47,804 nt of DNA from a virus: positions 1 to 47,804 of the IMG/VR virus record IMGVR_UViG_3300021425_000057; one strand, given 5' to 3'. Of the stretch, positions 6,701 through 39,500 are shown one piece after another (position 1 is the stretch's first letter; each line of letters opens with the position of its first letter). The translations under genes and the position numbers were made by a program. Under the pieces are notes generated by a model that saw nothing but the letters and a program-made list of their open reading frames with translations, ran no database searches and had not been told where the DNA came from.

Positions 6701-9700
6701 GATAGCGGGCAGACTACAGCTGTTGCTGGTGGTGATAATTTAATACTTAGCGATTCCTCAAATGGGGGTATGAGTATCTTTACTCCTAGTACTGCGCTGG
6801 GTAGTATATTCTTTGGTGATGAGTCTGATTCAGATGTGGGTTGGATTAGATACAACCACACTAACGACTATATGTTGATTGGTACTGGTGGCGGTACAAG
6901 AGTTACCATTAAGAATAATGGTCTGATTAACCTCGGAGCATACGGAGCGGGATACCTCAAGTCAGATGCTTCTGGTAACATTACTGTAGACTCAGACACA
7001 ATTGAAGATACTTTAGACTCGGTTACTGATAGAGGGAATACTACGACTAATAATATTACTGTAAATGATATCTCTGTATCTGGTGGTATAATTAATCTTG
7101 GCACTGCTAATACTAGTTCTGGTCATATAAACTCATATGAAAATATGACGTTTAATATTGACTCAGATAATGACGATACTAACAGATATTTTGCTTGGTA
7201 TACAAACGGAAATGCTGGCGGAGGTTCTGAGATTATGCGTTTAACTGAAGCTGGTAACATAGGTATTGGCACTACGAGTCCAGAAGTTAATCTTCAAGTT
7301 GGAGATGGTACAGATAATAGCAAGATTAGAAGTTATTTTAGCGATGGCGAATATACTGAGGTAACTGGCTATGGTATAAACTTTAGCCGTCAATACGCTC
7401 AAATCAATCCGGTTAATGATGCTACTCAATATCTTTACATAGGTGATAATTCTTTTAGCTATGCAGGTATATATACTGATGCAGCTAATCATAGGTTTGG
7501 ATATAATACCGATACTTTTGTAACTATAAATTCTTCTGGCAACGTAGGTATCGGAACTACGAGTCCTAACGATAAGCTTGTAGTAGCTGGGATTATTAAA
7601 AGTATAGGAGGCACAAATAACGGTAAGTTTGCTCAGATATATGTAAATGACAGTTATGCTTATTATACCACTAACGCTGGTGTAATTTATATGAGTACTG
7701 AGTTGCAGGTCAATTCTGGTAAAATTGGCTCTTATGATGAAGATTTATCATTAGAAACTTCGGGTACTACTAGAATTACAGTAAGCAACACAACAGGTAA
7801 CGTAGGTATAGGGACTGCTAGTCCAGATTCTACTCTTCACGTAGATGGAACAATTAGATTTGTAAATTCTGGTTTTGCTGGGTTTGAAGCACACAATACA
7901 AACGGCACTTGGGAAAGCTTTATTGGAACCGAGACAGGTGGCGGTGGTAATAGATACAATTCTGCATCAAGTCAACATACTTTCTATAACAATTCTACCG
8001 CTGTAATGCGAATTAACAGTAGTGGTAACGTTGGTATTGGAACCGCTTCCCCATCAGAGAAACTACACGTCTCAGGTAACGTCCGCATTGAAGGTGACCT
8101 CACCGTCAACGGATCATATACACAGATTGATACAGATGTAAACACTACAGAGCAGTGGAACGTAACTAACGATGGTACTGGTCCAGCTGTAACTATCAAT
8201 CAGACAGGTTCACAGGACATTATGGATGTCCAAGACGATGGTACTAGCGTGTTCTACATTGAAGACGGTGGTAATGTCGGTATTGGTACTACAGATCCTA
8301 GTACCAAGCTAGAAATATCTGGGGCTTCAGGTCAAAAAATAAGAATAAAAAGCACAAAAACATCATTAGCTGCTGATGAATTAGTAGGTGCGTTTGAAGG
8401 GTATAAAACTGATGGCTCTACAAATGGTCCAGGTGTTTTTGGTTCTTTAAATATTTATTCTCAAGACCTTGGCGGTGCTTCTTATGTTACTCTTAATACA
8501 TCAGCTAGTGATGGCAATAATGTAGAGCGGTTAAGAATAAAGTCAAACGGAAGTGTACTTTTATCCTCATACGGGAACAATAACTTCACAGGCACAGCTG
8601 CATATGCATTAGCTGTAGATAGTAGCGGAAACGTCATTGAAACGGCTGTACAAGGATCTCCTACAGGTGGTAGCGGTACAGGGAACTACTTGGCTAAGTG
8701 GGAGACTTCAAGTACGCTAACAGATTCCCCTATCTATGATAACGGAGGGAACATTGGTATCGGGACTGCTAGTCCTAGTCATTTATTAAATTTAAATTCT
8801 ACTGATTCTAATTTAGTTGCATTAACAATAGATAATTCCAATACGGACGATAGTGGTGCAGAAACATCTGAAATAAGATTTAGACATTACAGAAGTTATG
8901 TTCCAGGTCAAAATGACGCTGGTAGTATAATAGTGGGTAAAGAGCAAGCTTGGGATCAAGCTGGTGACAGAAACTCTTATATGTCATTTGGAACAAGAAG
9001 AGGTTCTGATGCTGTTGTTGAGAAAATGCGTATCACTTCAGCTGGCAACGTTGGTATCGGGACTACGAGTCCAGGTGAAAAGCTTGATGTAGTAGGCAAC
9101 ATTAAATCTCAATACAACGGTAACAATTATTCTAGATTAGGTCAAAACTCAAGCGGTGGTTATATACAAGCATATAGCGGTGCTGTAGAAAAAATAATGT
9201 TCCGTTCGTATGGAGATTCATTTATTAACGGAGGCAACGTAGGTATCGGGACAACCGCTCCTAGAAGCGGTTACAAACTTACTCTAGACAAGTCTACTAA
9301 TGTTTCTGGAGAATTCGTTGGTATATCTATAGAAGAGGCAGGAGGTACAGGATATGGTTATATTAGATCTGAAGATCAGCTTACTCCAGATACTTCTTTT
9401 GTTATTGGTCATACATCTCGTGTATTAACATTTGAAACAGGTTCTACAGAAAGAGTTCGTATAGATAACTCAGGTAACTTAGGTATTGGGACCACTAGTC
9501 CGCAAACTGAACTCCACGTAAAAGGAAATAATGGATGGGGTGAAGTAAGAATTGAAGGACAAACTTTTGCTAGTGGACACGGTGCTTCTTTAGAGTTTTA
9601 CTCAGAAGGAACAGCATTAGCAGATATTTACGCAAGTACTGACAAGCATTTGTACTTTAGAACTAATGGTACTAATGAGCGTATGCGTATCACTAGTGCA

Positions 9701-11056: not shown

Positions 11057-14000
11057 ATGGCGGAAAATAAGAACATTAATGCTCAGTTAACTATAAAAGC
11101 TAACTCAACTAATTCTATCAGCTTTGCTGATGATGGAGCGTTTACAGTATTAAACGCAGATGCTGTATTAAGGGTTAATCAAAGAATAGAGGTGTGGGGT
11201 GGAGGTTCTGGTAAACAGTACCTTGATGTAAGAGATCAGAGCGGTAATGTTAAAATAATGCTTAACGCTGAAGATAATTCTTACTTCGCAGTTAACAACG
11301 TTGGTATCGGGACAACTAGTCCAGGGGCTAAACTTGAGGTTAATGGCGATGGGACAAATACTGGTGGTATTGCATTAAGAGAAGGAACTAATCAAGTTCA
11401 TTATATATATACAGACGGTCCTTATCAGTACAACCTTATTGGTTCATCATCTCCTAATTGGCGATGGGGGCAACAAGGCGGTGATGTTAAAATGGCTCTT
11501 AATAATAATGGCTTAGGTATCGGGACTACTAGTCCAGATGCTCCTTTAACTGTACACAGCTCTACAGACCCTGAGATTAGATTCGGTTACTCTTCTAGTC
11601 AAGACCACAGAATAGTTTGGGACAGCTCTAAGGTTTATATCCACGCAGATCCTGAAAATGCAAATGCGAGTTCAGCTATAGGTCTAGGGGTAGACGGCAC
11701 TATAGGGTTGCTTATGGACAATGAACACGATGTGGGTATCGGAACTACTAGTCCTAACACTAGACTTCACGTAGCAGATAGTACTACTGGAGTTATTATG
11801 AGAATTCAAAACTCTAGTGCTGGGGAAGAATCCTCTTTGAGGTTCCAAGCTTTGAGCAGTACTTCTACACAAGAGTACGCTGATATTGCTTTAGACCCAC
11901 AAGCAGGTTCAGGGGCATTAGTGTTCAGAAACCCATACACTTCTGAACGTATGCGTATTGATGGTAGTGGCAACGTAGGTATCGGGACAACTAGTCCTAG
12001 TACTTCTTTACACGTTGTTAAGGACGCTTCTTGGGAGGTAGCTAGATTTGAAGCGGATTCTTACCCAACAGCTACAGTATACTCTCAAGCGGCAGCCAAG
12101 TACGCACAGCTTAACATTTACGACACTAGAATCAATTCTGAGCCTACGATGGAGTTGCGTGCTGACACACCGCATTTTAATATAAGACTTGATGATACGG
12201 GTAACGTTCTAACTATACTTGACGGAGGCAACGTTGGTATTGGCACGACTAGTCCATCATATAAATTAGATGTTGCAGGTGATATTTATATTAGTAATGG
12301 CGAATCACTATACTTAGGCAACGCTAATAGCAGAATATCCTCTAACTCTTCAAGCGACATACTTTACTTCCCTAATAATGACCACATTTTTGGTTCGGTA
12401 ATTAGTGGAGCTGACGTAGAGCGTATGCGAATTACTGAAGCTGGCAACGTAGGTATTGGAACTACTAGTCCAGACGAAAAGTTTGTAGTATCGGATGGAG
12501 CAAATATTAATTTTAAAGTTGGTCAACTATCACATCAAACAGTAGCTAATCCAGGGGTAGGTTTTACTTTTAGTAGAACAAGCTCAGATGCTCCTTTAAT
12601 GGCTATGGGTGTACTAGAAGATGACGACTTAGGGGTAATGTCTAGGAATACTATACAGTTCCTTACTGGAGGTACTAATAATTATCAATATACTACCGAA
12701 CGTATGCGTATACACGCAGACGGTAATGTTTCTGTAGGTACAACGAATGCATATGCTAGATTCAGCGTAAAAGCTACTTCGCATAACAACGGTATATCTG
12801 TAAACAGACAAGCAGATAATACAGCAGCAATTTACATTGGTAATGATGGCGGTAACAATCCAATATTAGCAGCTAATAATGCTGATATGCTGTTCGGTAG
12901 AGATTTGTCAGGTACGTTTACAGAACGAATGAGGCTTACTAATGATGGTAATCTAGGTATCGGGACGACTAGTCCACAAGCTGCGTTACACATTAATAAT
13001 TATAATCTTCCTCAATTACTATTAGATGGTGGTGATGATTCAACTGGTGATATTGTAGTTCCTAATGGAGAAATCTTACAGATAGGGCATTGGAATACTG
13101 GGACTTCTACCTATACTGATAGATTTAGGATTATAGCCAACGGTAACGTTGGTATTGGTACTACTAGTCCAGGGGCTAAGCTGGATGTTGCAGGGTCTAT
13201 AGGCGTTACATCCGGAGATACCTTTGGATATGACAATAGTGGCGCTGCTATTTATATGAATACGGCAGGGGTAGGATTGTCTGGTAAGTTTGCAACAAAT
13301 GGATATTCAAGAAATCTTATTAGGTCTGACGGCTCTGCTACTATACAAATAGGGGATAACACATCTCTGATTAGCCTTATTAAAGTGCAAGCAGGTAGTA
13401 GTGGTGTAGATGGTGTAGTATCATTCTTGACTAAGAACTCTGAAAGAATGCGTGTCCATCACGATGGCAACGTAGGTATTGGTACTACGAGTCCGTCTTA
13501 CAAATTAGATGTATCTGGAGACGCAGGGATTGGAGGTACGCTATACAGCAATGACATTGAAGTAGACGGTGGGAATCAAATTGTAGTAAACAATTCTGCA
13601 TCTGCTGGGCATATTACTATCGGTGGTATTCAAAACGAAGCTGAAAACGGATATATGCGTGGTAACGTGCGCTTTAGCCGTGATGATGACCAAATAACTT
13701 ACGACAATGTAAACAACGTGTTTGTACACGCTGGAGGCAGTTCTACTGATTGGTCTATGATTGCTCACCATAGCGATGGGATGAGAATATATAGCGGTGC
13801 GTCTGACTCATCTGGATGGTCTAAGTCTTACACAGACTTTAAAACCGACTATATGTCTATTTATATAAATAACAGCGGTAACGTAGGTATCGGCACTGAT
13901 AGTCCTAGTCAGAAGCTTCACGTTGAAGGAGGAAATATATTAGTTGGTACTGATAGTGGTGACCCTTTCAATGCTAGTGCATTGGTAGGAATACAAGGTA

Positions 14001-15214
14001 CAACAGCTGCATACTTTCAAGCTAAGACAAATACTAGTGGTACCGCGGGGTTGTTATTGGGGGATACAGATGATGATTATCACGCTGGGTTAATATATAA
14101 TAATAGCACTAGCGCATTTACATTTAACGCTGGCAATAGTACACGTTTAACGATTGATGGGACATCCGGTAACGTAGGTATCGGGACTACTAGTCCTACT
14201 TACAAGCTAGATGTAAACGGTGGAATAAGGACATCATCAGTAACGGGTCCAGGTATATTAGATTTAGTAGCACCTACTAGTTTTTTAAGATTTCAAGCAA
14301 ACGCTAATAACATTTTTTATGATGCTGGTGGTAACCACTACTTCAGAACAGCCTCAGGAGCTTCTACTTCTATGATTGTTACCTCAGCAGGCAACGTTGG
14401 TATTGGTATCGGAACTACGAGTCCTTCTAGTAAGCTACACGTACAAATACCAACATCAAATAATGGAAGCAGACAAGAAATACAACGTTGGGTTAACACA
14501 GGACAAAACAGCGTTAGTCTTTTTGCATATGGAGGATCTATAGATTTAATACAAATAGGCGCTTGGAACTCAGAGCAAAACATTGCGATTGTAACAGAAG
14601 CTCTAACTTCTATGTCCGCCACAACCGCTAAGGGCATTTATATCAAATCTGGAGGCAACGTAGGTATTGGTACTACTAGCCCTTCTCATAAATTAGATGT
14701 AAACGGAGACATAGCTGTTAAAGGTGCATCAATTATAAATAAAGCCTCTGCTGCACTAGTTATAGGAGACATAGCAGGTACTGATTCCGTAACAAACTTA
14801 ACGCTTACTACAGCTGGTAGAAACACTGAAGTATTCTTAGACGATGCTGGTAATGTCGGAATCAACGACACCACACCTTCATACGCCCTTGATGTAACTG
14901 GAACTATCCGTGCTACAGGTGATGTAATTGCTTACTCGGATGCTCGTGTTAAAGAAAACGTAGAAACGATCCCTAACGCACTTGACAGGGTTAAGGCTAT
15001 GCGAGGTGTCGGATACAACAAGATAGGCTCTGAGGAGCGTTCTATTGGTGTTATAGCGCAAGAGATGCTTGATGTTATGCCAGAGGTTGTACATACAGAC
15101 GACCAAGGAATGCATTCTGTGGCTTACGGCAACCTTGTAGGTGTACTCATTGAAGCGATGAAAGAACAGCAACAACAGATTGACGAACTAAAAGCAATTA
15201 TTGCGAACAGATGA
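11057..15214 (+). CDS. Giant tail fibre 2 with C-terminal S74 self-cleaving chaperone
   Basis: This 1385-residue protein carries about fifteen GNVGIGTTSP-type repeats from residue 80 onward, paralogous to those of the preceding fibre. It ends in an intramolecular chaperone domain of the peptidase S74 (endosialidase-tail) family. Ser1294 and Lys1299 in the segment YSDARVKEN have the same spacing as the known Ser-Lys catalytic dyad, and GVIAQEM and a final coiled coil (EQQQQIDELKAI) follow. In this family the C-terminal part guides trimer folding and then releases itself by cleavage before the Ser; here about 92 residues would be removed. The gene starts 9 bases after fibre 1 and ends in an ATGA overlap with the endonuclease gene. 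Confidence 0.88.
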   Translation: MAENKNINAQLTIKANSTNSISFADDGAFTVLNADAVLRVNQRIEVWGGGSGKQYLDVRDQSGNVKIMLNAEDNSYFAVNNVGIGTTSPGAKLEVNGDGTNTGGIALREGTNQVHYIYTDGPYQYNLIGSSSPNWRWGQQGGDVKMALNNNGLGIGTTSPDAPLTVHSSTDPEIRFGYSSSQDHRIVWDSSKVYIHADPENANASSAIGLGVDGTIGLLMDNEHDVGIGTTSPNTRLHVADSTTGVIMRIQNSSAGEESSLRFQALSSTSTQEYADIALDPQAGSGALVFRNPYTSERMRIDGSGNVGIGTTSPSTSLHVVKDASWEVARFEADSYPTATVYSQAAAKYAQLNIYDTRINSEPTMELRADTPHFNIRLDDTGNVLTILDGGNVGIGTTSPSYKLDVAGDIYISNGESLYLGNANSRISSNSSSDILYFPNNDHIFGSVISGADVERMRITEAGNVGIGTTSPDEKFVVSDGANINFKVGQLSHQTVANPGVGFTFSRTSSDAPLMAMGVLEDDDLGVMSRNTIQFLTGGTNNYQYTTERMRIHADGNVSVGTTNAYARFSVKATSHNNGISVNRQADNTAAIYIGNDGGNNPILAANNADMLFGRDLSGTFTERMRLTNDGNLGIGTTSPQAALHINNYNLPQLLLDGGDDSTGDIVVPNGEILQIGHWNTGTSTYTDRFRIIANGNVGIGTTSPGAKLDVAGSIGVTSGDTFGYDNSGAAIYMNTAGVGLSGKFATNGYSRNLIRSDGSATIQIGDNTSLISLIKVQAGSSGVDGVVSFLTKNSERMRVHHDGNVGIGTTSPSYKLDVSGDAGIGGTLYSNDIEVDGGNQIVVNNSASAGHITIGGIQNEAENGYMRGNVRFSRDDDQITYDNVNNVFVHAGGSSTDWSMIAHHSDGMRIYSGASDSSGWSKSYTDFKTDYMSIYINNSGNVGIGTDSPSQKLHVEGGNILVGTDSGDPFNASALVGIQGTTAAYFQAKTNTSGTAGLLLGDTDDDYHAGLIYNNSTSAFTFNAGNSTRLTIDGTSGNVGIGTTSPTYKLDVNGGIRTSSVTGPGILDLVAPTSFLRFQANANNIFYDAGGNHYFRTASGASTSMIVTSAGNVGIGIGTTSPSSKLHVQIPTSNNGSRQEIQRWVNTGQNSVSLFAYGGSIDLIQIGAWNSEQNIAIVTEALTSMSATTAKGIYIKSGGNVGIGTTSPSHKLDVNGDIAVKGASIINKASAALVIGDIAGTDSVTNLTLTTAGRNTEVFLDDAGNVGINDTTPSYALDVTGTIRATGDVIAYSDARVKENVETIPNALDRVKAMRGVGYNKIGSEERSIGVIAQEMLDVMPEVVHTDDQGMHSVAYGNLVGVLIEAMKEQQQQIDELKAIIANR
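11294..14682 (+). repeat. Dispersed coding repeat, about 14 copies, in fibre 2
   Basis: The same core as in fibre 1 (encoding NVGIGTTSP) recurs through fibre 2. One copy, at 14399-14410, contains a tandem 6-base unit (GGTATT GGTATC) that adds an extra Gly-Ile. Confidence 0.82.
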
Positions 15215-15825
15215 TTCACTTGTATTTAAAGATATCACCAAAAGGTAAAAAATACTTAGGCAAAACAATTAAAGATCCATATACATATATGGGTAGCGGA
15301 AAAGTATGGAAGAGACACATAACTAAGTACAGCTACACAAAAGATGATATAGATACATATGTTCTTTATAGTGATTCAGATTCAAAAAGATTTGCTTACT
15401 ATGCCAAAAAAATATCTTTATGTTTAGATATTATTAATGATTCAACTTTTTGTAACATAACTATTGAAGAAGGTCAAGGAGGAACAACTTGGAATTGCAT
15501 TTCAGAACAAGGTAAAAGGAATTTTATAGAATCCACAAAAAGACCTAAAACGGAAGAACACAAAAGAAAAATAGGGTTATCCTCAAAAGGAAGAGATGGT
15601 TATGGACATAAACCAGTTTGTCAATACACACTTGAAGGTGATTTAATTAAAGTTCATAGATCAATATCTGATGCTCTTAGATATATAGGGAAAAACCCAA
15701 GAAACGCATCTGAAATAAGAGAGGTTATAAACGGGGGGAGATACAGAAAAACTAGAGGTAAAAGAATATTTGTAAAAAGAACCAAAGCTTTTGGCTATAA
15801 ATGGAGAGACTATGTTACAAAGTAG
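15211..15825 (+). CDS. Free-standing homing endonuclease, GIY-YIG-like with NUMOD3 and NUMOD1
   Basis: This 204-residue protein begins HLYLKISPKGKKYLGKT, a divergent GIY-YIG-type nuclease start (YLGKT at 15-19 in the YIG position), followed by DPYTYMGSGKVWKRHI, as in phage homing endonucleases. Residues ~105-127 (RPKTEEHKRKIGLSSKG) match the NUMOD3 DNA-binding repeat, and ~135-190 (VCQYTLEGDLIKVHRSISDAL) match NUMOD1. Base composition is markedly more A/T-rich than in the flanking fibre and collar genes, a sign of transfer. The start overlaps the fibre 2 stop (ATGA) and the end overlaps the next gene by 14 bases. It probably cuts related phages at this fibre-collar junction and spreads by repair. 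No intron is evident. Confidence 0.78.
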   Translation: MIHLYLKISPKGKKYLGKTIKDPYTYMGSGKVWKRHITKYSYTKDDIDTYVLYSDSDSKRFAYYAKKISLCLDIINDSTFCNITIEEGQGGTTWNCISEQGKRNFIESTKRPKTEEHKRKIGLSSKGRDGYGHKPVCQYTLEGDLIKVHRSISDALRYIGKNPRNASEIREVINGGRYRKTRGKRIFVKRTKAFGYKWRDYVTK

Positions 15826-17093: not shown

Positions 17094-17387
17094 ATGAAAG
17101 CAAAGAAGAAAGACTCAAGACTTGCACGTGCTGGGGTATCTGGTTTTAACAAGCCTAAGCGTACACCCAACCACCCTAAGAAGTCGCACATCGTTGTTGC
17201 TAAGGTAGGCGATAAAATAAAGACTATACGCTTCGGAGAGCAAGGTGCAAGCACAGCTGGAAAGCCTAAGGCTGGTGAGTCTTCTCGTATGAAAAAGAAA
17301 CGTGCATCGTTCAAAGCACGTCATCGTAAGAACATCGCCAAAGGCAAAATGTCTGCTGCGTATTGGGCGAATAAGGTTAAGTGGTAA
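17094..17387 (+). CDS. Small basic protein, probably DNA-binding or virion-associated
   Basis: This 97-residue protein is extremely basic, with many Lys and Arg, and includes SGFNKPKRTPNHPKKSHIVVAK and, at the C-terminus, MSAAYWANKVKW. I recognise this as a small conserved family of marine and aquatic tailed phages found near structural genes; no function is established that I know of. The open frame extends upstream to 17046, but that region is the terminator and promoter; the ATG at 17094 lies 4 nt after the -7 box and gives the conserved N-terminus MKAKKKDSRLARAG. Its stop overlaps the ATG of the next gene (TAATG), so it heads the signalling operon. Confidence 0.65.
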   Translation: MKAKKKDSRLARAGVSGFNKPKRTPNHPKKSHIVVAKVGDKIKTIRFGEQGASTAGKPKAGESSRMKKKRASFKARHRKNIAKGKMSAAYWANKVKW

Positions 17388-17542
17388 TGACTGAAACTGA
17401 CATCAAAGTAATGCTCTTAAACGCAAGTACGTTTGCAATAACTTTCTCACAAGTTGAGATGGCTCTAAAGATTATGCTGCTTATTATATCTATAGGCTAC
17501 ACAGCGCAACGCTGGTATTTCTTACGCAAGAAAAATGAATGA
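17387..17542 (+). CDS. Small single-span membrane protein, holin-like
   Basis: This 51-residue ORF reads MTETDIKVMLLN...QRWYFLRKKNE. A short polar N-terminus is followed by a hydrophobic segment at about residues 26-40 (ALKIMLLIISIGYTA) and a basic tail, the pattern of small phage holins and other one-span membrane proteins. Its start overlaps the previous stop (TAATG) and its stop overlaps the histidine kinase start (ATGA). Position beside a sensor kinase and a second membrane protein supports a role at the inner membrane, possibly lysis. There is no homology beyond general resemblance to small marine phage membrane proteins. Confidence 0.6.
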   Translation: MTETDIKVMLLNASTFAITFSQVEMALKIMLLIISIGYTAQRWYFLRKKNE

Positions 17543-18774
17543 ATCGTATAGCAAAAATATGCTTGGGTGTGTCAGCTGTCATTATGCTCACATTCTTTGC
17601 TGTACAAACGTGCATTGTACTAAGGTATTGTGAACCCACATACTTTCTCGCTGAATTTGGTTACGCTTGTGTAATCTTGTTTATGCCACCGTTTTTCTAC
17701 GTGGTATACAGCTATGTTACCTCTACAAAGATTAAGGAAGAAAACATAGACATACAGCTTCGTGCTATTGACAGCTCTAGCATAGTCGTTACTATGGATA
17801 TGGACGGCATCATAAAGTCTGTAAACAACAACTTCTGCAAGTCTACGGGATATACCGCTTCAGCTGTAAAAGGTATGCCACACAGCAGACTGGTTCCCAA
17901 AGATTATGCGGAGAGTATGGAGTACGCTCACTTCTGGAGAAGGTTGGCTAGCGGTGAAACCATCAGCGGGGAGTTTGAGCGTGTAGATAAAAACGGTAAC
18001 CAGATATGGGTATTTGGTCACTACACCCCTGTAAAAGGCAGGGACGGTAAGTACAGAAAGGTAATGAAGATCGCCACAGATGTCACTCCACAGCACGAGG
18101 CTGAAGACTTGGTAAACCAAAAGAACTCCTACCTAGAACACGCAGCGAAGATACTCCGTCACGATATGCACTCAGGTATTAACACATATATGCCTAGGGG
18201 ACTCACTTCGCTCAAGCGTAGAATAACAGACGAAGACATTAAGAAGCTCAAGATACAGGCTCCCTTAAAGATGCTTGAAGAAGGGCTAAGACACACCCAA
18301 AAGGTATACTCAGGAGTCAAGGAGTTTACCAACCTCGTCAAAGAAGATGCACAGCTTGATAAAGAAGTGTGCAATCTTACAGAGATACTTACCGAATATC
18401 TAAAAGCCACATCTTATATAAAGCAAGTGAAAATAGGTTTGTTACCTTCTATATCGGTAAACGAGCCTTTGTTCTGTACAGCTATTGACAACTTGATCCG
18501 CAACGGTTTAAAGTATAACGATAGCTCCACTAAATTTGTATCTATATATATGCAAGACAATAACCACCTATGTGTTGAGGACAACGGGCGTGGGATGAGT
18601 CAGCAAGACTTTGTAGAATACTCTAAGCCGTACACCCGTAAGAAAGGGCAGAGGGAGCAGGGGAGTGGACTCGGTTTAAACATATGTCTAGCAATATTGA
18701 AAGAACACGGATTTACAATCCGAGCAGATAAACAGGAACACGGAACTAAACTACTTATAAAGATTAAACAATGA
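17539..18774 (+). CDS. Membrane-bound PAS sensor histidine kinase
   Basis: This 411-residue protein has two membrane spans at about 5-28 and 37-60 with a very short outside loop, a PAS domain at about 72-190 (VNNNFCKSTGY; WVFGHYTPVKG), a dimerisation and phosphoacceptor region with LRHDMHSGIN (candidate His208), and a HATPase_c domain with an N box (DNLIRNGLKYN, 317-327), a G1 box (VEDNGRGM, 346-353) and a G2 box (GSGLGL, 375-380). All catalytic motifs look intact. It would autophosphorylate and pass phosphate to a receiver, most simply the one encoded next by ATGA overlap. The minimal loop means the signal is likely sensed in the membrane or by the cytoplasmic PAS domain. The H box is unlike the common HE-x-R-x-P type. 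Confidence 0.92.
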   Translation: MNRIAKICLGVSAVIMLTFFAVQTCIVLRYCEPTYFLAEFGYACVILFMPPFFYVVYSYVTSTKIKEENIDIQLRAIDSSSIVVTMDMDGIIKSVNNNFCKSTGYTASAVKGMPHSRLVPKDYAESMEYAHFWRRLASGETISGEFERVDKNGNQIWVFGHYTPVKGRDGKYRKVMKIATDVTPQHEAEDLVNQKNSYLEHAAKILRHDMHSGINTYMPRGLTSLKRRITDEDIKKLKIQAPLKMLEEGLRHTQKVYSGVKEFTNLVKEDAQLDKEVCNLTEILTEYLKATSYIKQVKIGLLPSISVNEPLFCTAIDNLIRNGLKYNDSSTKFVSIYMQDNNHLCVEDNGRGMSQQDFVEYSKPYTRKKGQREQGSGLGLNICLAILKEHGFTIRADKQEHGTKLLIKIKQ

Positions 18775-19208
18775 TAAACTCTATACTACTTATAGACGAT
18801 GAAGACCTATTCCATTTGGTGTTTGAAGATGCGTGCAGCATCCTAGATATAACACTGTCTCTAGAGGCACTAGACTCCTCAGACGAGGCAGATAAAAAGT
18901 TCAAGGAATGGTTCCCTGACGACCCTAACGATGAACGCCCAGAGTGTGTATTCGTAGACCTCAACATCATAGGCTCTAGCTTTGACGGCATTGAAATGAT
19001 TCGTAAGATAAACTTTGACTACGGCAACGGCTGTGTGATTGGTATCATCTCTTCTTCTGACGACAACCAAGAGATTGAGAAAGCTAAGAAGGCAGGCGCA
19101 CAGTTTTGGATTATCAAGTCTGACGACATTGAGCCAAGACTAGAGGAGTTTAAAAAAGACTACGAGGGGTATAAGGACAAAACAAATCCGTTCAAGGTAT
19201 ATAGATGA
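18771..19208 (+). CDS. CheY-like single-domain response regulator
   Basis: This 145-residue receiver has acidic residues at positions 9-10 (LLIDDED), candidate phosphoacceptor Asp63 (CVFVDLN), a conserved Ser at 94-95 (GIISSSDD) and Lys116 (FWIIKSDD), the full set needed for phosphorylation. No DNA-binding or enzymatic output domain follows; only a ~30-residue charged tail remains. It would therefore act by binding a partner when phosphorylated, as CheY does. The gene overlaps the kinase (ATGA) and the following membrane-protein gene (ATGA), which makes those products the likely partners. The long acidic insert DDPNDERPE before the phosphoacceptor strand is a small peculiarity. Confidence 0.9.
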   Translation: MINSILLIDDEDLFHLVFEDACSILDITLSLEALDSSDEADKKFKEWFPDDPNDERPECVFVDLNIIGSSFDGIEMIRKINFDYGNGCVIGIISSSDDNQEIEKAKKAGAQFWIIKSDDIEPRLEEFKKDYEGYKDKTNPFKVYR

Positions 19209-19750
19209 TAAGCTCTAAGGACACGGTAAAGGAGGCTATAATAAAGGCTAAAGCTAAGAAAGTTTACATAGAAGGAAACTTTGTCAAGCTATTGGCTGAC
19301 ACTTCCGATCCCGATGTCAGGGCATACATTGACGATTGTAAACGCAAAGACATAACAGCTAGGAAGAAACGCCTACAGATTACCAAGCAAGTCCAGAAGC
19401 AAAACAAAGAGCTTGAAGAGGCAGCTGTGGTAAAGGAAGCGTTGGTGCTAGAGTTGCAGAATTCCCTAGAGGAGACAAAGAAACTGCGTGACGAGGCGCT
19501 AGAAGACCTAGAGGTGATGCAGAAGCGTACACAGTTTGAACTCATCAGCACTATTGTAAAGGTAGCCTTGTGGGTGATTGTAGGTGTGGGTGTGCTTACT
19601 ACCCTGATGTACGGCTGGGCGATAGCCTCAGGTACAGACACACAGATTATAGGCAGTACCTGGTCTAATATGTTTGGTATACTGCTAACTAATGCGTTTA
19701 GTATTGTAGGTACTATTATGGGTGTTAAGTATGCGACAGATAAAGACTAA
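19205..19750 (+). CDS. Coiled-coil protein with two C-terminal membrane spans, candidate output of the two-component pair
   Basis: This 181-residue protein is not recognised as a known family. Residues 1-50 are a soluble, charged N-terminal part (KAKKVYIEGNFVKLLADTS), about 53-112 form a long coiled coil (KQVQKQNKELEEAA, ETKKLRDEALEDLE), and two hydrophobic segments follow at about 115-137 (IVKVALWVIVGVGVLTTLMY) and 154-175 (NMFGILLTNAFSIVGTIMG). The topology places a large cytoplasmic head on a membrane hairpin. Start overlaps the response regulator stop (ATGA). It could be a regulated holin, a membrane anchor, or a partner that binds the phosphorylated receiver; this is inference from operon structure. 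Confidence 0.7.
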   Translation: MISSKDTVKEAIIKAKAKKVYIEGNFVKLLADTSDPDVRAYIDDCKRKDITARKKRLQITKQVQKQNKELEEAAVVKEALVLELQNSLEETKKLRDEALEDLEVMQKRTQFELISTIVKVALWVIVGVGVLTTLMYGWAIASGTDTQIIGSTWSNMFGILLTNAFSIVGTIMGVKYATDKD

Positions 19751-20273
19751 ACATATAAAAGAAAGAGTAGGTCTAGAAACATACTACCGACTCATAGGAC
19801 TGCCTTTTGACTCTAATATATCAAGTCCTTCGCAGGTAGTTACAGCTATAGACTTTAACAATTTAAGGAAAGAGTTGCAGGATGTAATTATGTCTTTACC
19901 GATTGTAAAGTTCACGGGTCGCTTTGATGCGGGTGGTCTAGACAAGAGACAGCAGTTCTACATAATGACTACACTCAAGGAGAATTTCATTGTAGACACA
20001 CAGGGAAGAAACTATGCTAGGTATGTATCTAGATTAAACAACCTACCAGACATCAGTCACAAGAATATAGAGAAGGTGTTTGAGTCTAACGAAGATATCG
20101 CTATGCTAAGGAGAATAGAGGTGTTTGAGGTAAACTACGATGGGGTGGTATACAAGGTGGAAATTGTAGAAGAAGGTGAGGGAACGTTTGCTAGTGTTGA
20201 GTATGAGGGTAATTATGTGATGGATGCAAAACTTGAGGAGGAGATAATGGAGTACTTCAATAAGCATAGATAA
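19731..20273 (+). CDS. Hypothetical protein, last gene of the signalling operon
   Basis: This protein of about 180 residues is not recognised. The frame opens at a GTG (19722), but the ATG at 19731 is preferred; it overlaps the preceding gene by 20 bases. The sequence is mixed alpha/beta with no membrane segment, no cysteines and an acidic C-terminal part (VEIVEEGEGTFASVEYEG). The N-terminus is basic. It follows the two-component cassette without a terminator and is followed by a new promoter at 20280, so it is likely cotranscribed with the kinase and receiver. Function unknown; a structural or adaptor role is equally possible. Confidence 0.6.
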   Translation: MRQIKTKHIKERVGLETYYRLIGLPFDSNISSPSQVVTAIDFNNLRKELQDVIMSLPIVKFTGRFDAGGLDKRQQFYIMTTLKENFIVDTQGRNYARYVSRLNNLPDISHKNIEKVFESNEDIAMLRRIEVFEVNYDGVVYKVEIVEEGEGTFASVEYEGNYVMDAKLEEEIMEYFNKHR

Positions 20274-30696: not shown

Positions 30697-31977
30697 ATGA
30701 AGGCAAAAAAGGATAATACAAAAAAATACGCAGTTGGCGGATTCATACAGGCTGGGCTAGGGGCTGCTCAGGCTATTTATGGAGCCAGTCAAATACCAAG
30801 GGCTAATGCTGAATTTGCCGCAGCTCAAGCAGCAGCTCCTTCACTGGAGACACCTGCTCAGTTTTACGAAAACTATCGTAACGCCTATGATGCCGAGATT
30901 GCAAGAATGGAATCTGAAAGCATTGACCGTAACATCGGAACATCTGTGCAAGCCCTTCAAGGCGCAGGTGGTCGTGCATTGGTCGGAGGACTAAGCGCTG
31001 TTACAGGACAGGCTCAAAATGAACGTAACAGAATGCTCGCTCAAGAAAGAGCTGTAAGACTACAGGCTGGTTCAGAACTCGCTAGAGCAGAAGAAAGATC
31101 TGTTCAGATGAGAGAAAGACGCAGTCAAGCTCAAATGGATAGAGCTAGTCAGGCTTACCAAGCCGCATTAGGTAATATAGGCGGTGGGCTTAGCTCTATG
31201 GCTACAGGTCTTACGGAAGGTTTTGCTGCCTTAAAAGACAAAGAAGGTGGAAGTGGAGACAAACGACCAGGAAGTCTTCTAGAGAGAGCTAGGGCTAGAT
31301 TCGGGGGATTAGACGGAGAAGGTTCTGAGGCTAAAGTGGCTGATGTTCCTAGTCTCAAAATAGACACTCCTGAAATGGATTTTGCTAAGAACTATATGAG
31401 TCGCTTTGAAAGACCTTCTGTAGGTGATTTAGGTGAATCGTTTAAGCCAGCTCAGCCACAGTCTTACGACTTCGCTACAGAGAGAGATAAGTTTGTATCT
31501 GGAGCGCCTAAGGGTCGTTTTGACGAGCTTTTAGGAAGGTCTACTAATCCAAACGCTATGAGCTTTGTGCCTACGATAGACCAAAATGGGTATCAGGCTA
31601 CGCCAGAGAACGAGGCAATCATCAAGAGATACAGAGACAAGATGATGCTGGAGCGTGGATACACTAACTCTGACTACAAGAAGTCACAAGAGATAACATT
31701 CACACCAGAAGAAAATAAAATCATTTCCGCTTACGAGAAAGGAAGACCAAAGAGAAACGGTTATCCTGTATTCGAGCAAGGGGGTATGAAGACTAAAGGA
31801 GCTTTTAACCACGACACAAACCCTATTCATTTAGTACAAGACGGTCAGAAGGTTGGTGAAGCTACAGGTGGAGAATATATACTGAATCCAGAACAAGCAA
31901 AGGCAGTTGCTAAAGAAAGCTCTTATGCACGTAAACTGTTCAAGAGATTTGAAAAGAACGCTAAAAAGAACAAGTAA
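30697..31977 (+). CDS. Internal virion / ejection protein (probable)
   Basis: This 426-residue protein has a basic N-terminus (MKAKKDNTKK), a Gly/Ala-rich hydrophobic segment (FIQAGLGAAQAIYGASQI), a long Ala/Gln/Arg-rich helical region through about residue 155 and a Gly-rich hinge. The C-terminus (HDTNPIHLVQDGQKVGEATGGEYILNPEQ) is a motif I recognise from internal virion proteins of other Bacteroidota phages. Such proteins are packed in the head and enter the cell envelope with the DNA. It is first in a three-gene unit with 1-base stop/start overlaps, all of the same likely class. The leaderless-type promoter lies 4 nt upstream. Confidence 0.62.
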   Translation: MKAKKDNTKKYAVGGFIQAGLGAAQAIYGASQIPRANAEFAAAQAAAPSLETPAQFYENYRNAYDAEIARMESESIDRNIGTSVQALQGAGGRALVGGLSAVTGQAQNERNRMLAQERAVRLQAGSELARAEERSVQMRERRSQAQMDRASQAYQAALGNIGGGLSSMATGLTEGFAALKDKEGGSGDKRPGSLLERARARFGGLDGEGSEAKVADVPSLKIDTPEMDFAKNYMSRFERPSVGDLGESFKPAQPQSYDFATERDKFVSGAPKGRFDELLGRSTNPNAMSFVPTIDQNGYQATPENEAIIKRYRDKMMLERGYTNSDYKKSQEITFTPEENKIISAYEKGRPKRNGYPVFEQGGMKTKGAFNHDTNPIHLVQDGQKVGEATGGEYILNPEQAKAVAKESSYARKLFKRFEKNAKKNK

Positions 31978-33566
31978 TGTCAGGACCGCTAGGAACAACA
32001 GTATTTAAAGTACCAGAGCTAGGAGCTTTGGAGAGACAGTTACGTGAAAAGCAAGAGGCTAAAGACGAGAAAGAGCGTATGCGCAGAGAGCGTGAGATCA
32101 ACGCATCTGGTGCTGAGGCTCTGTATAGCAAGAATGCGTATAAGCTAAAAGCTGGGTACGATGGACCTGCACTAGGGGCTTTTTCTGAAATGATGAAGGC
32201 TGGTGTTGAATACGAAAAGACTGGTAGCGCACAGGCTAAGTCTGATTTTGACAAATGGAATCAAAAGCTCAATCAGATTATGAACGTTGGCGTAAGTGTC
32301 AGCGGGACTATGCTTCAAGAATATCAAGGTTTCTATGCAAATCAAGGTGAAGGGTATGCTTCAACACAAGAAGATGTAGACAGATCTTTCTCGGAAAAAA
32401 TGAATAGAAATGTAAACTGGAAGATTCAGAACGGAGAGATTATGATTGAAAGCGGTACGGGATATGTTCCCTTTGCTCAGCATACTATGTTCTCAGACAA
32501 AATCAATCCAGACAATTCATTCATAATCCCCAGAGAGGCAAAGACTGGTCGCTATGTAGCACCGACTTCATTCATTATGGATAGAGAAAACGTTGGCGTG
32601 CTTTCTAGGTCTAAAGATGCAAACGAAGCTTATCTAAGACTTGACAAACAACTTAGATACAAGATTGAGTCAGACAAAAACTTCCTAGAAGATGTAGCTA
32701 TCTACGCAGAAATTGCAAGAGGTCACATCAGTGGTACTGAGCCTATCTCTGTTCAGATGAAGAACGAGGCTGTGAAGAAGATGCAGAAAGAAGAAAATCT
32801 TGAGGAGGCTCTCGATTTTTATTCTGCCGCAATAAAAGATAGAATCGATGATGTTTACAATCAGTTCAGAGAAGAAAAGGTAGACCCTACTTCTGCTGAG
32901 GCTCTTGCTGGCAGCGAAACAGAAACTGAATCAGAACCTACTCAAAAAGCTGTACCTGTAAATGTAACCGAATCTCTAGCTCAAGAAAGACGTGTGAATA
33001 TGGAGGGCGCTTTAAATCAAGCTCCTGTGACAATGAATAGAGACTTTGCTGTGAATCAAAAGGAGATTCAGTCTTACATTGAAAAATACTCAGACGGAAA
33101 CTCCCCAATTACAGCACAAGACGTTATTGATGTATCAGCCAAGTACGGGGTTCCTATAGAATTCATTCTAGCTCAAGGTAGACTGGAATCAAACTTTGGA
33201 ACTAAAGGTCGTGGCGCTAGAACAAAGAATATTTACAACGTAGGCAACTACACATCTGGCGATACAATGCGTAAAGACTCAGCAGAGCAAAAAGCCGTGA
33301 GTCGTGAGATGACTGATTGGGTTGGAGGCTTAGAAGCTTACGCTAGATTGTTACAGCAAGATTATATGCCTGAAGACGGAAACTGGAACAGGTTGTTAGA
33401 GAATGAGTTCGTAAATAAAGACGGTAACAGATATGCTACTGACGATAAATACGAAGGTAAGCTAAAAGACATCATATCAGGCATTTACAAATTAAACACT
33501 GAAAAATCCGTATCTTCGCAAGAACAGTTCGATGCTAAATCTGCACGACAAAGATACAATTACTGA
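31977..33566 (+). CDS. Internal virion protein with C-terminal muramidase-like domain
   Basis: This 529-residue protein has a charged helical N-terminus and middle, an acidic Ser/Thr/Glu-rich linker near 308-330, and a C-terminal domain from about 365 to 510 with SAKYGVPIEFILAQGRLESNFGT and NIYNVGNYTSGD. That arrangement resembles glucosaminidase or lytic transglycosylase domains, with Glu404 (in RLESNFG) the likely catalytic acid. A wall-cutting activity in an ejected virion protein would open the peptidoglycan for DNA entry, as in T7 gp16. It overlaps its neighbours by one base on each side (TAATG, TGATG). A dedicated lysis enzyme is a less likely reading given its neighbours. Confidence 0.72.
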   Translation: MSGPLGTTVFKVPELGALERQLREKQEAKDEKERMRREREINASGAEALYSKNAYKLKAGYDGPALGAFSEMMKAGVEYEKTGSAQAKSDFDKWNQKLNQIMNVGVSVSGTMLQEYQGFYANQGEGYASTQEDVDRSFSEKMNRNVNWKIQNGEIMIESGTGYVPFAQHTMFSDKINPDNSFIIPREAKTGRYVAPTSFIMDRENVGVLSRSKDANEAYLRLDKQLRYKIESDKNFLEDVAIYAEIARGHISGTEPISVQMKNEAVKKMQKEENLEEALDFYSAAIKDRIDDVYNQFREEKVDPTSAEALAGSETETESEPTQKAVPVNVTESLAQERRVNMEGALNQAPVTMNRDFAVNQKEIQSYIEKYSDGNSPITAQDVIDVSAKYGVPIEFILAQGRLESNFGTKGRGARTKNIYNVGNYTSGDTMRKDSAEQKAVSREMTDWVGGLEAYARLLQQDYMPEDGNWNRLLENEFVNKDGNRYATDDKYEGKLKDIISGIYKLNTEKSVSSQEQFDAKSARQRYNY

Positions 33567-36500
33567 TGGCAGAAGAATTATTCTTAAACGAGCAGGACAA
33601 GACTAAACTAGATGGTATTGTCCAGGAGATGCAATCAAACGGAGAGACACCTGATTATATTCAAGCCGTTGTAGACGATTACAAAGGTAAATACGGTAAA
33701 AAAAAAGAGTCTACGGATTCTCAATCTTTGGAATCGACTTCGGGTTCTCTATCAGCTGGAGATAACCTCGTTAACAACATTAACAATGTCTGGTATCAAA
33801 TACAAGGCATTCCTCAACGTGCTGCGTTAAGTATTGTAACTGCTGCGGAAAAGACCCTCGGAGATGAGGTTGGAGAGTTCGTAGCTGATGCTATATTCTC
33901 ATCTAACCCAATCACAGCTGGACTTGCTGCCACAGACATTAGCAAGGAGCTGCTTCAGATGAATGCTTTAAGCGACCTCAAAGAGCTTGAAGGCAAGATG
34001 GTTGAAACCAATCCTCTTACAGAAGCAGAAAGCTGGAACAGCATATCTAAATCAGCATCAAACATCGCAGGCGCTGTGATGCAAATCATTCCTACAGCTG
34101 CTGCCGGGGCTTTGGTTCCTGGAGTCGGTATATATACTGATATGGTTGGGTATGGTCTTTATGACTACAATGCAGAGGTTGCTAAGAAAAAGGGTAAGGA
34201 TATCGAGCAACTTTATTTTGATGGAGAGGACGAGTTTTTAGCACCTGCTGTTATTGGTGCTACTGCCGGTTACCTAGAGAAAAAAGGTTTTAAGGGAGCT
34301 ACCAAGACTATGACTAAAATGCTAGGTAAGTCTGGTACAAAAGAAGTGCTTAGATCGATGGCAGAGAGTGGCTTCCAAGAGGGGTATACCGAGTGGCTTC
34401 AGTCCGGTATGGAAGAGGCTAACCGTGCTATCGCAAGAGGTGAAGACGAAATCTCTGGCACACAGTGGGACTTTATGTTCTCTAAGCAAGGTTTGGAGAA
34501 TCTTTTAGTTGGTGCTATTTCTGGGGGTGTACTTGGGGGTGGTGGTGTAGCTCTAAGAAGAAACTCTGTTGTTGGGGATACCGAGAACGCAGAGGTAAAA
34601 GCTAAGGTTAAGCAAGAGATTATTGATCTTGACGAAGCCGCAAAAGACAAGGCTCTCGATGAAGAAGAAAGAGAGGAATACAGAAAACTTCGTGACGAGA
34701 AGGTAGAAGAATACAAAGAGGTTCAGAAAAAAGAAACCGAGTTCTACGATAAGTTCACCGAAGAGGATTATGAAGAAGTAAAAGGACTAGACAGTGAGAT
34801 TGTATCTGTACTAGACAAGATCGATAAATTCAAGTCCGAAAAAGCAAAACCGGCTCTAGAAAAGAAAGTAGAGCAACTTGTAGAACGCAAGAAACAGGTT
34901 GAGCAGAAATACCGTGTTGATGATAGTGAACCACAGGTAGCACCACCTGCACCTAATCAGGAACAAAAAGCACCTGCTAAACCTGCACCTGTAACCGAAC
35001 CTGTAGCTGAAGAAGTAGTTGCAGAAGAGCAGAGAAAAGAAGACCTAGCCGCACAGAAGGCGCAGGCTATAAAAGCAGGGCTTGGACCAACAGTTCAGAA
35101 TCTTAAAAAAGCTATTCAAGCATTTGAGGCTGAGAAAGCTAAAGCTGCTAAAGAAGGTGACGATACAAGCGAGTACGACTCTCAGATTAGTGAGATTCAA
35201 GGTATGGTTGATCGTATCGAACAATCAGTCCAGCCCAAGGTAGAGGAACAGACTGTTGAAGTTCCTAAGAAAAAAGTTAAACAACAAAAGCCTAAGAAAG
35301 AAGCTCCAAAGAAGGCGTTTACCATTGAATCAGCAAATATTGTAACCGAGTCCTCTCCTACAGCAACTAAAGAAGCTGCTAACAAGAAGTTTACTCAAGA
35401 GTTCAAGAAGTCTCTAGGCAATGCTACATCTATGACTGAGTTCATCGGAACGTATGGTCAGCAGGGAGATAGATTTACTATTGATAGAGCTACATATGTA
35501 GTACAAAATGTAGAAGAAACTGGAAACAAAAAGAGAGTATCCTTCTCTCTAATTGACTCAAAAGGTAACAGAAAGCGTAACTACACAGCTACTATTGAAA
35601 ACGGAAAGCCTGTTACTATTCGTAACGCTAAAGGCTTGATTGATGTATTCGCTAAACGTAAGAAGGCAACATACGACCGATTCAAAGCTGTATCTGACGC
35701 TAAGAAGGTTGAGGTTGAAGTCAAGAAGGAAAAGGGCAAGAAGGATCAAAGAATATTTAAGCCTAAAACCAAGAAGGGTATTCGTTATGCTATGGCTAAA
35801 GCATTTGGCTTGAAGGATAGTCAAGCTGAAGCTGCTACTGAAATCATTTATCGTGGTATGAAGAACCTTGCACTTCGCAAGGGCATCGAGATGAGTGATG
35901 TAATGAAGGGGATTCAGTATGTAAAAGGTACTGAGACTGATGCCGTACGTCTTCTAAAACAATCTAAACATAGTGCAATAGACAGTAACAAGATTCACGA
36001 TGAATCTATGACGCTGGCTCAATTAAACCCTATTGAACACAAAATTTTAGAAAAGCACACAAGAGAAGGTATTGATGACCCAATAATAGTAGAAGGAATC
36101 AATATACTAAATAAAATTACTGGGAAAAACATTCTCAGGAGAAAGGAAGGTGTAAGCTTTTCTGAAGCTGTGAATACTGCTTTGGATTTTTATTACGATA
36201 AAAGTTCTGGTGTTTTTCGTGCGATGGAAGAATCTAAAGTTATATCTCTTGATCCTAAAGATATATCAGAAAACAAAAGTTTAGATGCTTTAATGAGAAT
36301 AACTGCTGCCGGTGGACTTGGTATAAAACTGGAAAAAGGAAAACCTTTGTCTGAGCAGGTTACTGACGAACAAGCCGAAAATTTTTATCAAAGCTCAGTT
36401 CAGGAAGCAAAAACAATTATTGCCGATCACATAAAACAAGATCAAATAGAAACTATACGTCAATGGGGTGAATTTCTGTATAACCTTCCTGATACAAAGC

Positions 36501-39500
36501 AAAAACTAAGAGCATTGGTTCTTTTTGACAAACTTGTTTCATTTAGATACGACTTAAACACAGACAAGGATTACAAAAGAGACAAAAAGAGTACAGCAAA
36601 CCTGACCCCTATGGTACAAAAAGTTGCCTTAGAATGGGTAATGTCTGGAAAATCAGAAGAGCATCCTCTAAAGTCGTATATCAAGATGCTTGGTAAATCT
36701 AAGCAGGGTGTATTGAAACAGGATGATAGGGTTGTATACAATAAGAACGGTTTTAAAGCGTACAAGTTTAAAGGTGTTAGCCGAGATACTTTTGGAGTGT
36801 CAGCAGCGCAAGAAATTGATGATCTTGTTATTATGACTCAGGACACAATTTTTTGTACTAAATACAATGCTAAACAGCACTTAAATAGGGGTGATTTCTA
36901 TTTATTAACAAAAGACGGTAAGGTTGTAACTGCCATTAATATCGATAATGAAACCAGAACCATTGATCAAATAAAGGGAGAAACTCCTACTCAAAGCAGA
37001 ATAGCAAAATATAAAGATGCTGAACACGATTTTATATTAAACTCCGGTGAAATAGAAAATGCTCAAAAATTTATAGAAAGAGAAAATGCATCCGCTGAGG
37101 CTGTGTTTAATATGCCTCAGTCTATTGAAACAATGGAAGCTGCTGAGAAAACTATTAGAGACTTCGTTTCAAACGGAGCCGTAGAAGATGGTGATGGTTT
37201 TATCAGGGAGTTTGAGCAAAAAGGTGGCTGGGATTTACTAGGTGTGACTCCGGAACAAGTTATGCTTGTTTCCTGGGCTGATGATAATTACGATCACAAC
37301 AAGTATTTAACAGATATAGGCAACATAGAACAGCAGTACAACGAGGTCACTGATGATGTTACTTATTTACCTACAAATGAAATAAAAGTAATTATTAATT
37401 TAGACACAGACGGACCGCCTCCAACTATTGTCTACAGAGACACAGATGTAGATATAGAAAAAATATACATAAGAGAAGGTGAGTCTATTAATATAGAATT
37501 CCCTCTTTCTGAAAAATACAATGTAAGAATAGGAGACGTACAAGAAGTTATAAACGCAGAACTTCTTGATGGAGACGGAGATATGTCATCCACCTCTAGA
37601 GTTAATTTAGTTCCATACGGAAGTATAGAAGACTGGCATAATGTAAGATCCAGCACAAGTATAAAGGTAGAAGGGAAAATAGATTCTACACTTCATATTA
37701 AAACTAAAAACGGTATATGGGATTTAGAGGTTGGTGAAAAAGGATATATAGCAAAAACCAGAACAACAAAATCATATCAGGCAAAAACACCTGATAGTAT
37801 GCGATATGACTTGTTAGGGAAAAGTTCACCATTAGTTCATAGTGCTGTTGGACCTAACACTAAACTAGAGTTTATCGATTATTGGAAGGTTCCTCAGTCT
37901 TTTCCTTTATTCCAAGTTTCTGAAATATCTAAAGAGATAAAGAACTTCAAGTCTAAAGACAAGAAAGAGGCAGAAGGTAAAGCTAGAGAGCTTCGTAAGA
38001 AGTACAAGCTGATGAACCTCAAGGTATACAAGTACGGAGGCGAGTACAAGATTAAAGCTATCCGTGACAGCAAGACCGAGGCTAAGAAGATTAAAGGTGC
38101 AATGGTAGTAGAGGATGCAGCGTTTATGATTTACGCCCTCACAAACCCGGATGTAACCACACCGCTTCACGAGTTCTCACACGTATACGAAAGATACTTA
38201 TCCGCAGATGAGATTAAAATTGTAGAGAAATGGTCTGGATTCAAAAGAGGAACAGTAGACTTCTCTGAGGCGTTTGCACGTGGTTTTGAAAGATACTTAG
38301 CTGACGGCAAAGCACCGGTTCCAGCATTGCAGAAAATCTTTGACAATCTAAGAAAATGGTTGAAGAAGATTTACGAGGGTGTACGCTTCAAAGCTATCGC
38401 TAGAGAGCTTACTCCAGAGGTAAGACAAATCTTTGACGATATGATTCTTACGCCTGCTGAGAAAGCTCAGATGCAACAGAACGAAGCCCAGATGGTTGCT
38501 GAAGAAACCGCACAGGCAGAAGAGGTTGCTAAGAAGACTAAAGCCCCTAAGAAAGCTGCTCCTAAAAGAAAGACTTTTACTCAGATAGCAAAAGAGAAAA
38601 ACGATCCGCTCAAGCTGCCAAACGGTAAATTAGACCTTGGAGACGGTAACTCTATTGAATACAAGGGATTGGTAGACGGAAAGCATATGTACTCTTTCTA
38701 CGATGCTATGTTTGGAGATAGCGCTACTATTGATGAGATGGCTGCTAGAGGTATGCTAGATATGGGCAGACAATCCTTGTTCCAAGAGGATGTGGAAGAC
38801 GACTTCGAGTCTATGCCAGATCTAGCAGAAGAAATGCTTAACGATTCAGAAAAGCAAATTCTTTTAGCCGATGCATCTAAAAAAGGACAGCTAAAAAAGA
38901 GATTCACCACAGAATGGTCTGACAGACAAGGTAATATAAGACGTAAGTTAGAAAAGTTAAATTTAGAAGCAGCTGAGTCTCTGATGACCAATCGTGCTGG
39001 ATCTAAAGCCAGGGGGGTGAGTAGATTTCAAAAGTTTGAGAAGGAAATCTATGATGGAATTACTAAGCCTGTAGAAAGATTGATGAACAAGATTCTGCAA
39101 ATGGAGCGTATTGTTCAGATTGAATCTAATCGTAGGGCTAGAAGAAATGTTGCTCAGTCACAACTTGACAAGCTTGTCGAAAACAAGAAAGCTGTAAGAG
39201 AAGGATTGAAGCTAAGACTTTCTAAAGAAGAAACAAAAGAAGTTAAGGGTGTACTCAAGAAGATTGAGCAACAAGAAGCTCAACTTAAAAAACGCATTGA
39301 AGACAACGGTGTAATGAAGCACCCAAAAGGCACTACTGAGATATACGCTAGATGGTGGCTAGAAAACAAGGCTCCAAGATATTCTTATTATCAAGACGCT
39401 AAGAATCGTGCAGATAAGTACTTTTCAGCGATGAACGAAAATTTAAAGAAATCCTACGAAGCTGGACTCATTGATGAACAAACATACAACCGATTCAAGT

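Follow-up and report, generated by a model that had tools for sequence, protein, structure and literature searches.

We found four overlapping genes at 17387-19750 on the plus strand of the window, by which we mean the whole 47.8-kb stretch analysed, virus record IMGVR_UViG_3300021425_000057. The first gene (17387..17542) encodes tm51, a 51-aa one-span membrane protein, and is followed by a gene for a 411-aa membrane PAS histidine kinase (HK, 17539..18774) with PAS, DHp and HATPase_c domains and two spans. Next come a stand-alone receiver of 145 aa (RR, PF00072, 18771..19208) and a two-span protein of 181 aa (19205..19750), here called the effector, which is composed of an N-terminal domain (N-domain, 19205..19414), a long helix and a membrane hairpin. 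The N-domain also forms the start of a histidine kinase encoded in Bacteroidota (L171, described below). A fifth gene on the same strand, p183 (19722..20273), encodes a soluble alpha/beta protein, overlaps the effector gene and is an optional accessory to the cassette. The junctions tm51/HK, HK/RR and RR/effector are three ATGA overlaps, and the junction of tm51 with the preceding gene is TAATG. The open reading frames and internal overlaps agree with the original prediction; its view that the four proteins are made in fixed ratio is unsupported, as ATGA overlaps suggest coupling but not stoichiometry.

The portal, terminase and virion proteins of the window are related to counterparts in known phages. 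The portal is distantly related (30-34% identity) to Flavobacterium and other flavobacterial podoviruses, and for this reason the host of the phage is probably a member of Bacteroidota. A homing-endonuclease-like gene (15211-15825; NUMOD1 just under the cut-off; phrog_314) overlaps the end of a long repetitive ORF (11057-15214). At 31977-33566 lies the gene of a 529-aa protein with a Glucosaminidase domain at its C-terminus (1.6e-11), perhaps a virion lysin, and a very long ORF of 2755 aa follows at 33566-41833, residues 1-1000 of which gave no Pfam match.

The HK has predicted spans at residues 4-22 and 43-61, a PAS domain at 81-183 (PF13426, 2.5e-12) and a HATPase_c domain at 312-410 (PF02518, 1.2e-14). 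Since Pfam HisKA gave no match in the HK, the H-box was assigned by invariance and position: H208 (codon 18160-18162) lies in the DHp and is followed by the acidic D209. H208, D209 and S212 were found in 193/193 relatives, a count favoured by the fact that part of the loci were found via the H-box motif, a bias of which the RR and effector sites are free. Intact N, G1 and G2 boxes are present, and N322, D348, G350, G352, G377 and G379 showed no substitution, with gaps in a few sequences. Solved kinases, e.g. 2c2a, could be aligned to the ATPase and to the later portion of the DHp. Judged by sequence, with a putative phospho-accepting histidine and acidic residue and a HATPase_c domain carrying N/G1/G2 boxes, the protein is a histidine kinase, and the intact membrane sensor kinase of the original prediction stands. 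It has membrane spans but lacks a large periplasmic domain; a cytoplasmic PAS is usual in the family and is missing in some relatives that keep the spans. Relatives of the HK on plasmids had less than 32% identity among the matches listed.

The RR matched PF00072 (2.1e-7; 31.5 bits against a cut-off of 30.2) over residues 5-117 of 145. Residues D9, D10, D63 (codon 18957-18959), S94-S96 and K116 (codon 19116-19118) were invariant in 158/158 relatives, in line with the CheY-like receiver with Asp63 and Lys116 seen earlier, and the RR is near-invariant over its whole surface among relatives. An output domain, DNA-binding domain included, is missing from the protein. By these features the RR is classed as a single-domain response regulator, and a transcriptional RR was rejected because the output domain is missing.

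In the effector, the N-domain covers residues 1 to ~70 and the predicted spans lie at 113-131 and 156-174, the second of them within WSNMFGILLTNAFSIVGTIMGVKYAT. The predicted structure contains one continuous helix at 36-142 (~105 residues) running into span 1, in a model with a mean pLDDT of 78 and a pTM of 0.33, of which the segments are more reliable than the overall shape. The two predicted spans and the long helix fit the coiled-coil protein with two membrane spans that had been noticed after the receiver. Residues W153, T162, N163, S166, G169, G173 and K175 were kept in 161/161 sequences. The effector had no Pfam match above cut-off, and holin families were not robustly matched; phrog_689 was matched by 2/58 effector family members, the best value of 0.006 being no better than noise. 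Weak Pfam/PHROG matches to phrog_1544, phrog_25036 and a tail assembly chaperone were judged noise or coiled-coil similarity, and these identities were rejected. A Foldseek search, limited by the low pTM of the model, gave one real match, the uncharacterised phage protein A0A6J5PRT3, and nothing useful in the PDB.

Scans of IMG/VR gave relatives of all three proteins, at least 593 for the kinase, 182 for the receiver and 264 for the effector. The HK-RR-effector trio was found in hundreds of IMG/VR contigs with podovirus- and T4-like backbones, and the order HK, RR, effector was kept in nearly all loci fetched. Order, overlaps and residues recur in >150 distinct loci, which is far beyond chance. 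Median dN/dS values were 0.083 for RR, 0.204 for HK and 0.191 for the effector, indicating strong purifying selection, and the protein distances were correlated (HK-RR 0.84, HK-effector 0.59, RR-effector 0.43; 0/999 permutations each). Among 50,697 catalogued phage records the HK was matched weakly, and RR and effector had no match. A phage passenger (moron) or remnant was rejected on the dN/dS of 0.08-0.20 and the invariant catalytic sites. A known anti-phage defence system was also rejected, as PADLOC models gave nothing above noise against the cassette except a lone spurious 15-bit Cmr3 match. Among the outcomes that the original prediction had named as speaking against it were the cassette missing from relatives and catalytic residues degraded in homologues; we found wide recurrence and invariant residues. 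The kinase-receiver pair is intact, conserved and phage-encoded, and co-occurs with the membrane protein across relatives, as had been proposed. It is very likely a complete, conserved phage two-component system (TCS), of which no report was found in the open-access literature.

In a tree of HK core and RR, some forks of which are weakly supported, phages with capsid and portal of the window's type were placed in separate cassette clades (L001 with L064; L133, L135 and L138; L131). Because phages of this type are split among clades, the cassette was probably transferred between phage backbones as a unit. The carriers of HK-RR-effector are a large group of uncultured aquatic viruses, the hosts of which are probably Bacteroidota.

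In 70/87 distinct loci the gene of a small membrane protein ends shortly before HK, which extends to relatives the earlier observation of a single-span protein preceding the kinase. Several families are represented among these proteins: tm51, a two-span type of 62-66 aa and PF05105. The conserved positions of tm51 (19 sequences) are M1, D5, N12, E24, L27, K28, S35, I36, Y38 and T39, and it is possibly an HK partner or a holin-like protein. Two kinases stand ahead of one RR in seven loci. The inputs of the cassette are variable and the core is constant. p183 follows the effector in about half of the loci (81/161), and its fold search matched unnamed viral proteins only.

Other arrangements were also observed. 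L343, L379 and L392 contain two consecutive histidine kinases with one receiver and one effector, and in L343 and L392 a secreted coiled-coil-like protein is encoded between the kinases. A microbial rhodopsin gene is located between RR and effector in L061 (12165-12746) and L062 (12170-12751) (PF01036, 4e-14 and 1e-13), the only two such cassettes found in IMG/VR; helix C (WRYxDWTFT) and helix G (DLTAK) retain the counter-ion and retinal-lysine positions. A 165-aa membrane protein, m165 (L045:2858-3355 and relatives), is encoded between RR and effector in 38 loci.

In genome contigs only three relatives were found, including L171 and L172. The L171 set (CANIVF010000058.1) is located among ordinary Bacteroidota genes, e.g. 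that of a secretion-tail protein. It is composed of HK-RR and then a 349-aa protein in which the phage-type N-domain (first ~75 residues) precedes HisKA and HATPase_c. The identity to the window was 37% for the N-domain, 61% for the HK core and 66% for RR. The L171 operon and the phage cassette share the HK core, RR, gene order, HK/RR ATGA overlap and the N-domain in the third protein; however, the third protein of L171 ends in HisKA/HATPase_c and not in a hairpin, and in its HK there are three PAS domains but a span is not evident. The hairpin was present in 133/133 phage N-domain proteins classified. L172, on a contig of 968 kb, contains HK-RR without an N-domain protein. At L172:7898-9640 an in-frame stop near 8090 severs the span-containing start from the rest of a chromosomal multi-PAS kinase, by sequencing error or in a broken gene. 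In the HK core and RR tree, L171 and L172 make up one side of a supported branch with all phage sequences on the other. Close cellular versions are very rare (N-domain in 1/395 and 1/390 genomes, RR in 1/395), and no further N-domain or close RR of cellular origin was found in searches that covered about 400 genomes each.

Since L171 fuses the N-domain to a histidine kinase after HK-RR, the N-domain is probably the target of RR and the hairpin a swapped output. The simplest reading is an output swap, in which a receiver-target domain would be joined to a kinase in the bacterium and to a membrane hairpin in the phage. This fusion lends independent support to the originally proposed step from receiver to membrane effector, and RR likely acts through the effector N-domain.

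Among 189 distinct RR loci we counted 107 recognised lysis genes at up to 1.5 kb from the cassette against 5 at 1.5-9 kb, and 77/189 loci had a lysis gene within 3 kb, in counts biased by a query set drawn partly from cassette neighbours. Because of this bias a whole-contig Pfam repeat was run as control. A PF05105 holin was within about 3 kb of RR in 4/4 contigs having one, and M15 or PG-binding endolysin-like genes were near the cassette in 7/15 contigs where about 1-1.6 were expected (P 1e-5 to 3e-4). The contigs of this control are not entirely independent. The hydrolases that adjoin the cassette belong to four unrelated types: M15, amidase/PG-binding, GH19 and DUF5675, the lytic role of the last being assumed. 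The effector gene overlaps an M15 endolysin gene in L250, a GH19 endolysin begins 24 bases after the effector in L266, and in L358 and L392 a PG-binding endolysin is directly beside it. L343 has the order endolysin, HK, secreted protein, HK, RR, effector and two overlapping genes that are spanin-like in appearance only. In L008, whose cassette is a sister of that in the window with an RR ~95% identical, overlapping genes stand in the order DUF5675, holin-like 79-aa protein, tm51, HK, RR, effector and p183.

The lysis linkage is real and lineage-dependent. The link to lysis suggested originally was seen in many lineages, where endolysins and PF05105 holins adjoin the cassette, but not at the window locus: in podoviruses of its clade (G1107, G1108, G1109, G1110 and G1122) the recognisable M15/DUF5675 genes are 22-35 kb from the cassette. 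About half of the contigs, the window's clade included, have the cassette apart from lysis genes. That the effector is perhaps a holin is unproven; it lacks a robust holin-family match, and many phages have a PF05105 holin of their own next to the cassette, so that the hairpin cannot just be equated with the holin. With the clade's hydrolase so distant and a separate holin in many phages, a lysis regulator is as likely as a holin. We give somewhat better than even chances that the cassette controls lysis, for the window's own phage on the basis of its relatives.

We lean slightly towards a phage-encoded TCS that switches a membrane effector and probably sets lysis timing in most lineages. The HK, accompanied in some cases by a small membrane partner, would autophosphorylate on H208 and pass the phosphoryl group to D63 of RR, and the phosphorylated RR would then bind the N-domain of the effector. 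The change would run along the long helix into the two-span hairpin and alter the membrane state, and lysis timing would probably be set in most lineages by a hairpin that is either holin-like or an antiholin/holin regulator. The window phage is assumed to use the cassette likewise, though its endolysin lies elsewhere. A broader and more tentative proposal, to which we give somewhat less than an even chance, is that a widespread class of uncultured phages times lysis by a dedicated phosphorelay with a receiver-gated hairpin, which arose from a bacterial HK-RR-HK circuit when a membrane module replaced the last kinase, and that in some members one receiver takes input from two kinases, or possibly from a rhodopsin.

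The same TCS and effector might have an output other than lysis, e.g. superinfection exclusion, control of the membrane potential or a different takeover step at the membrane. We consider this unlikely but worth real weight: each contig checked had a single copy of the cassette, which moves between phage types, and many carriers have no adjoining lysis genes, whereas its non-random position next to PF05105 holins and endolysins of four unrelated types, with operons that often overlap, and the noise-level PADLOC matches point the other way. It is less probable again that the effector acts upstream, with the hairpin sensing the membrane, the N-domain regulating or anchoring RR, and a host protein as the true RR output. 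The almost invariant RR surface could reflect such a further partner and L172 retains HK-RR without an N-domain protein, but in L171 the N-domain occupies the input-domain position ahead of a kinase output, and spans and PAS already provide the HK with inputs.

Transcription is what most known TCS control, and RR might likewise reprogram host transcription via host regulators, with the membrane protein a separate neighbour; this we hold very improbable, because RR is without a DNA-binding domain and is followed at nearly every locus by the effector, which varies together with it. The homologues in Bacteroidota chromosomes (L171, L172) would suit a host cassette passing through the phage and functionless there, an explanation that retains hardly any credit against the hundreds of viral loci, the purifying selection, the invariant catalytic residues and the rarity of close cellular versions.

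The receiver-gated membrane effector that we favour can be compared with known systems. The cREC receiver of jumbo phages is also a phage-encoded receiver-fold protein, but is described as never found in histidine-kinase systems and is linked to NAD/ADP-ribose enzymes (PMC7824862). Phage phiCDHM1 agrBDC includes the gene of a histidine kinase, and an endolysin gene lies near the agr locus, but the system is of quorum-sensing type, with no response regulator or membrane effector reported (PMC3901668). In Caulobacter DivL is bound and switched by DivK, a single-domain RR, in its phosphorylated form (PMC5361649), a precedent that such an RR can switch a kinase-like protein by binding. As in DivJ/PleC-DivK-DivL, the phage RR would act on another protein by binding and not on DNA; DivL, however, is a pseudokinase bound via its kinase fold, and no kinship between DivL and the N-domain is suggested. 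Phage_holin_4_1 (PF05105) proteins are small membrane proteins of lysis modules that adjoin the cassette in many phages, but no sequence relation to the effector was found.

The usual description of lysis timing is that of a fixed clock governed by the accumulation of holin, and T4 lysis inhibition is the best-known case of environmental input to it. The cassette described here is conserved in hundreds of uncultured viruses, with RR and effector absent from the catalogued phages searched, and offers a clear output-swap relation between a bacterial and a viral signalling operon. Its frequent adjacency to host-bursting genes suggests that a phosphorylation signal controls a membrane event such as lysis. 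If true, a receiver would here act on a membrane module, which is unusual, and with a complete TCS that ends in a membrane effector the idea of sensed lysis would become open to direct testing.
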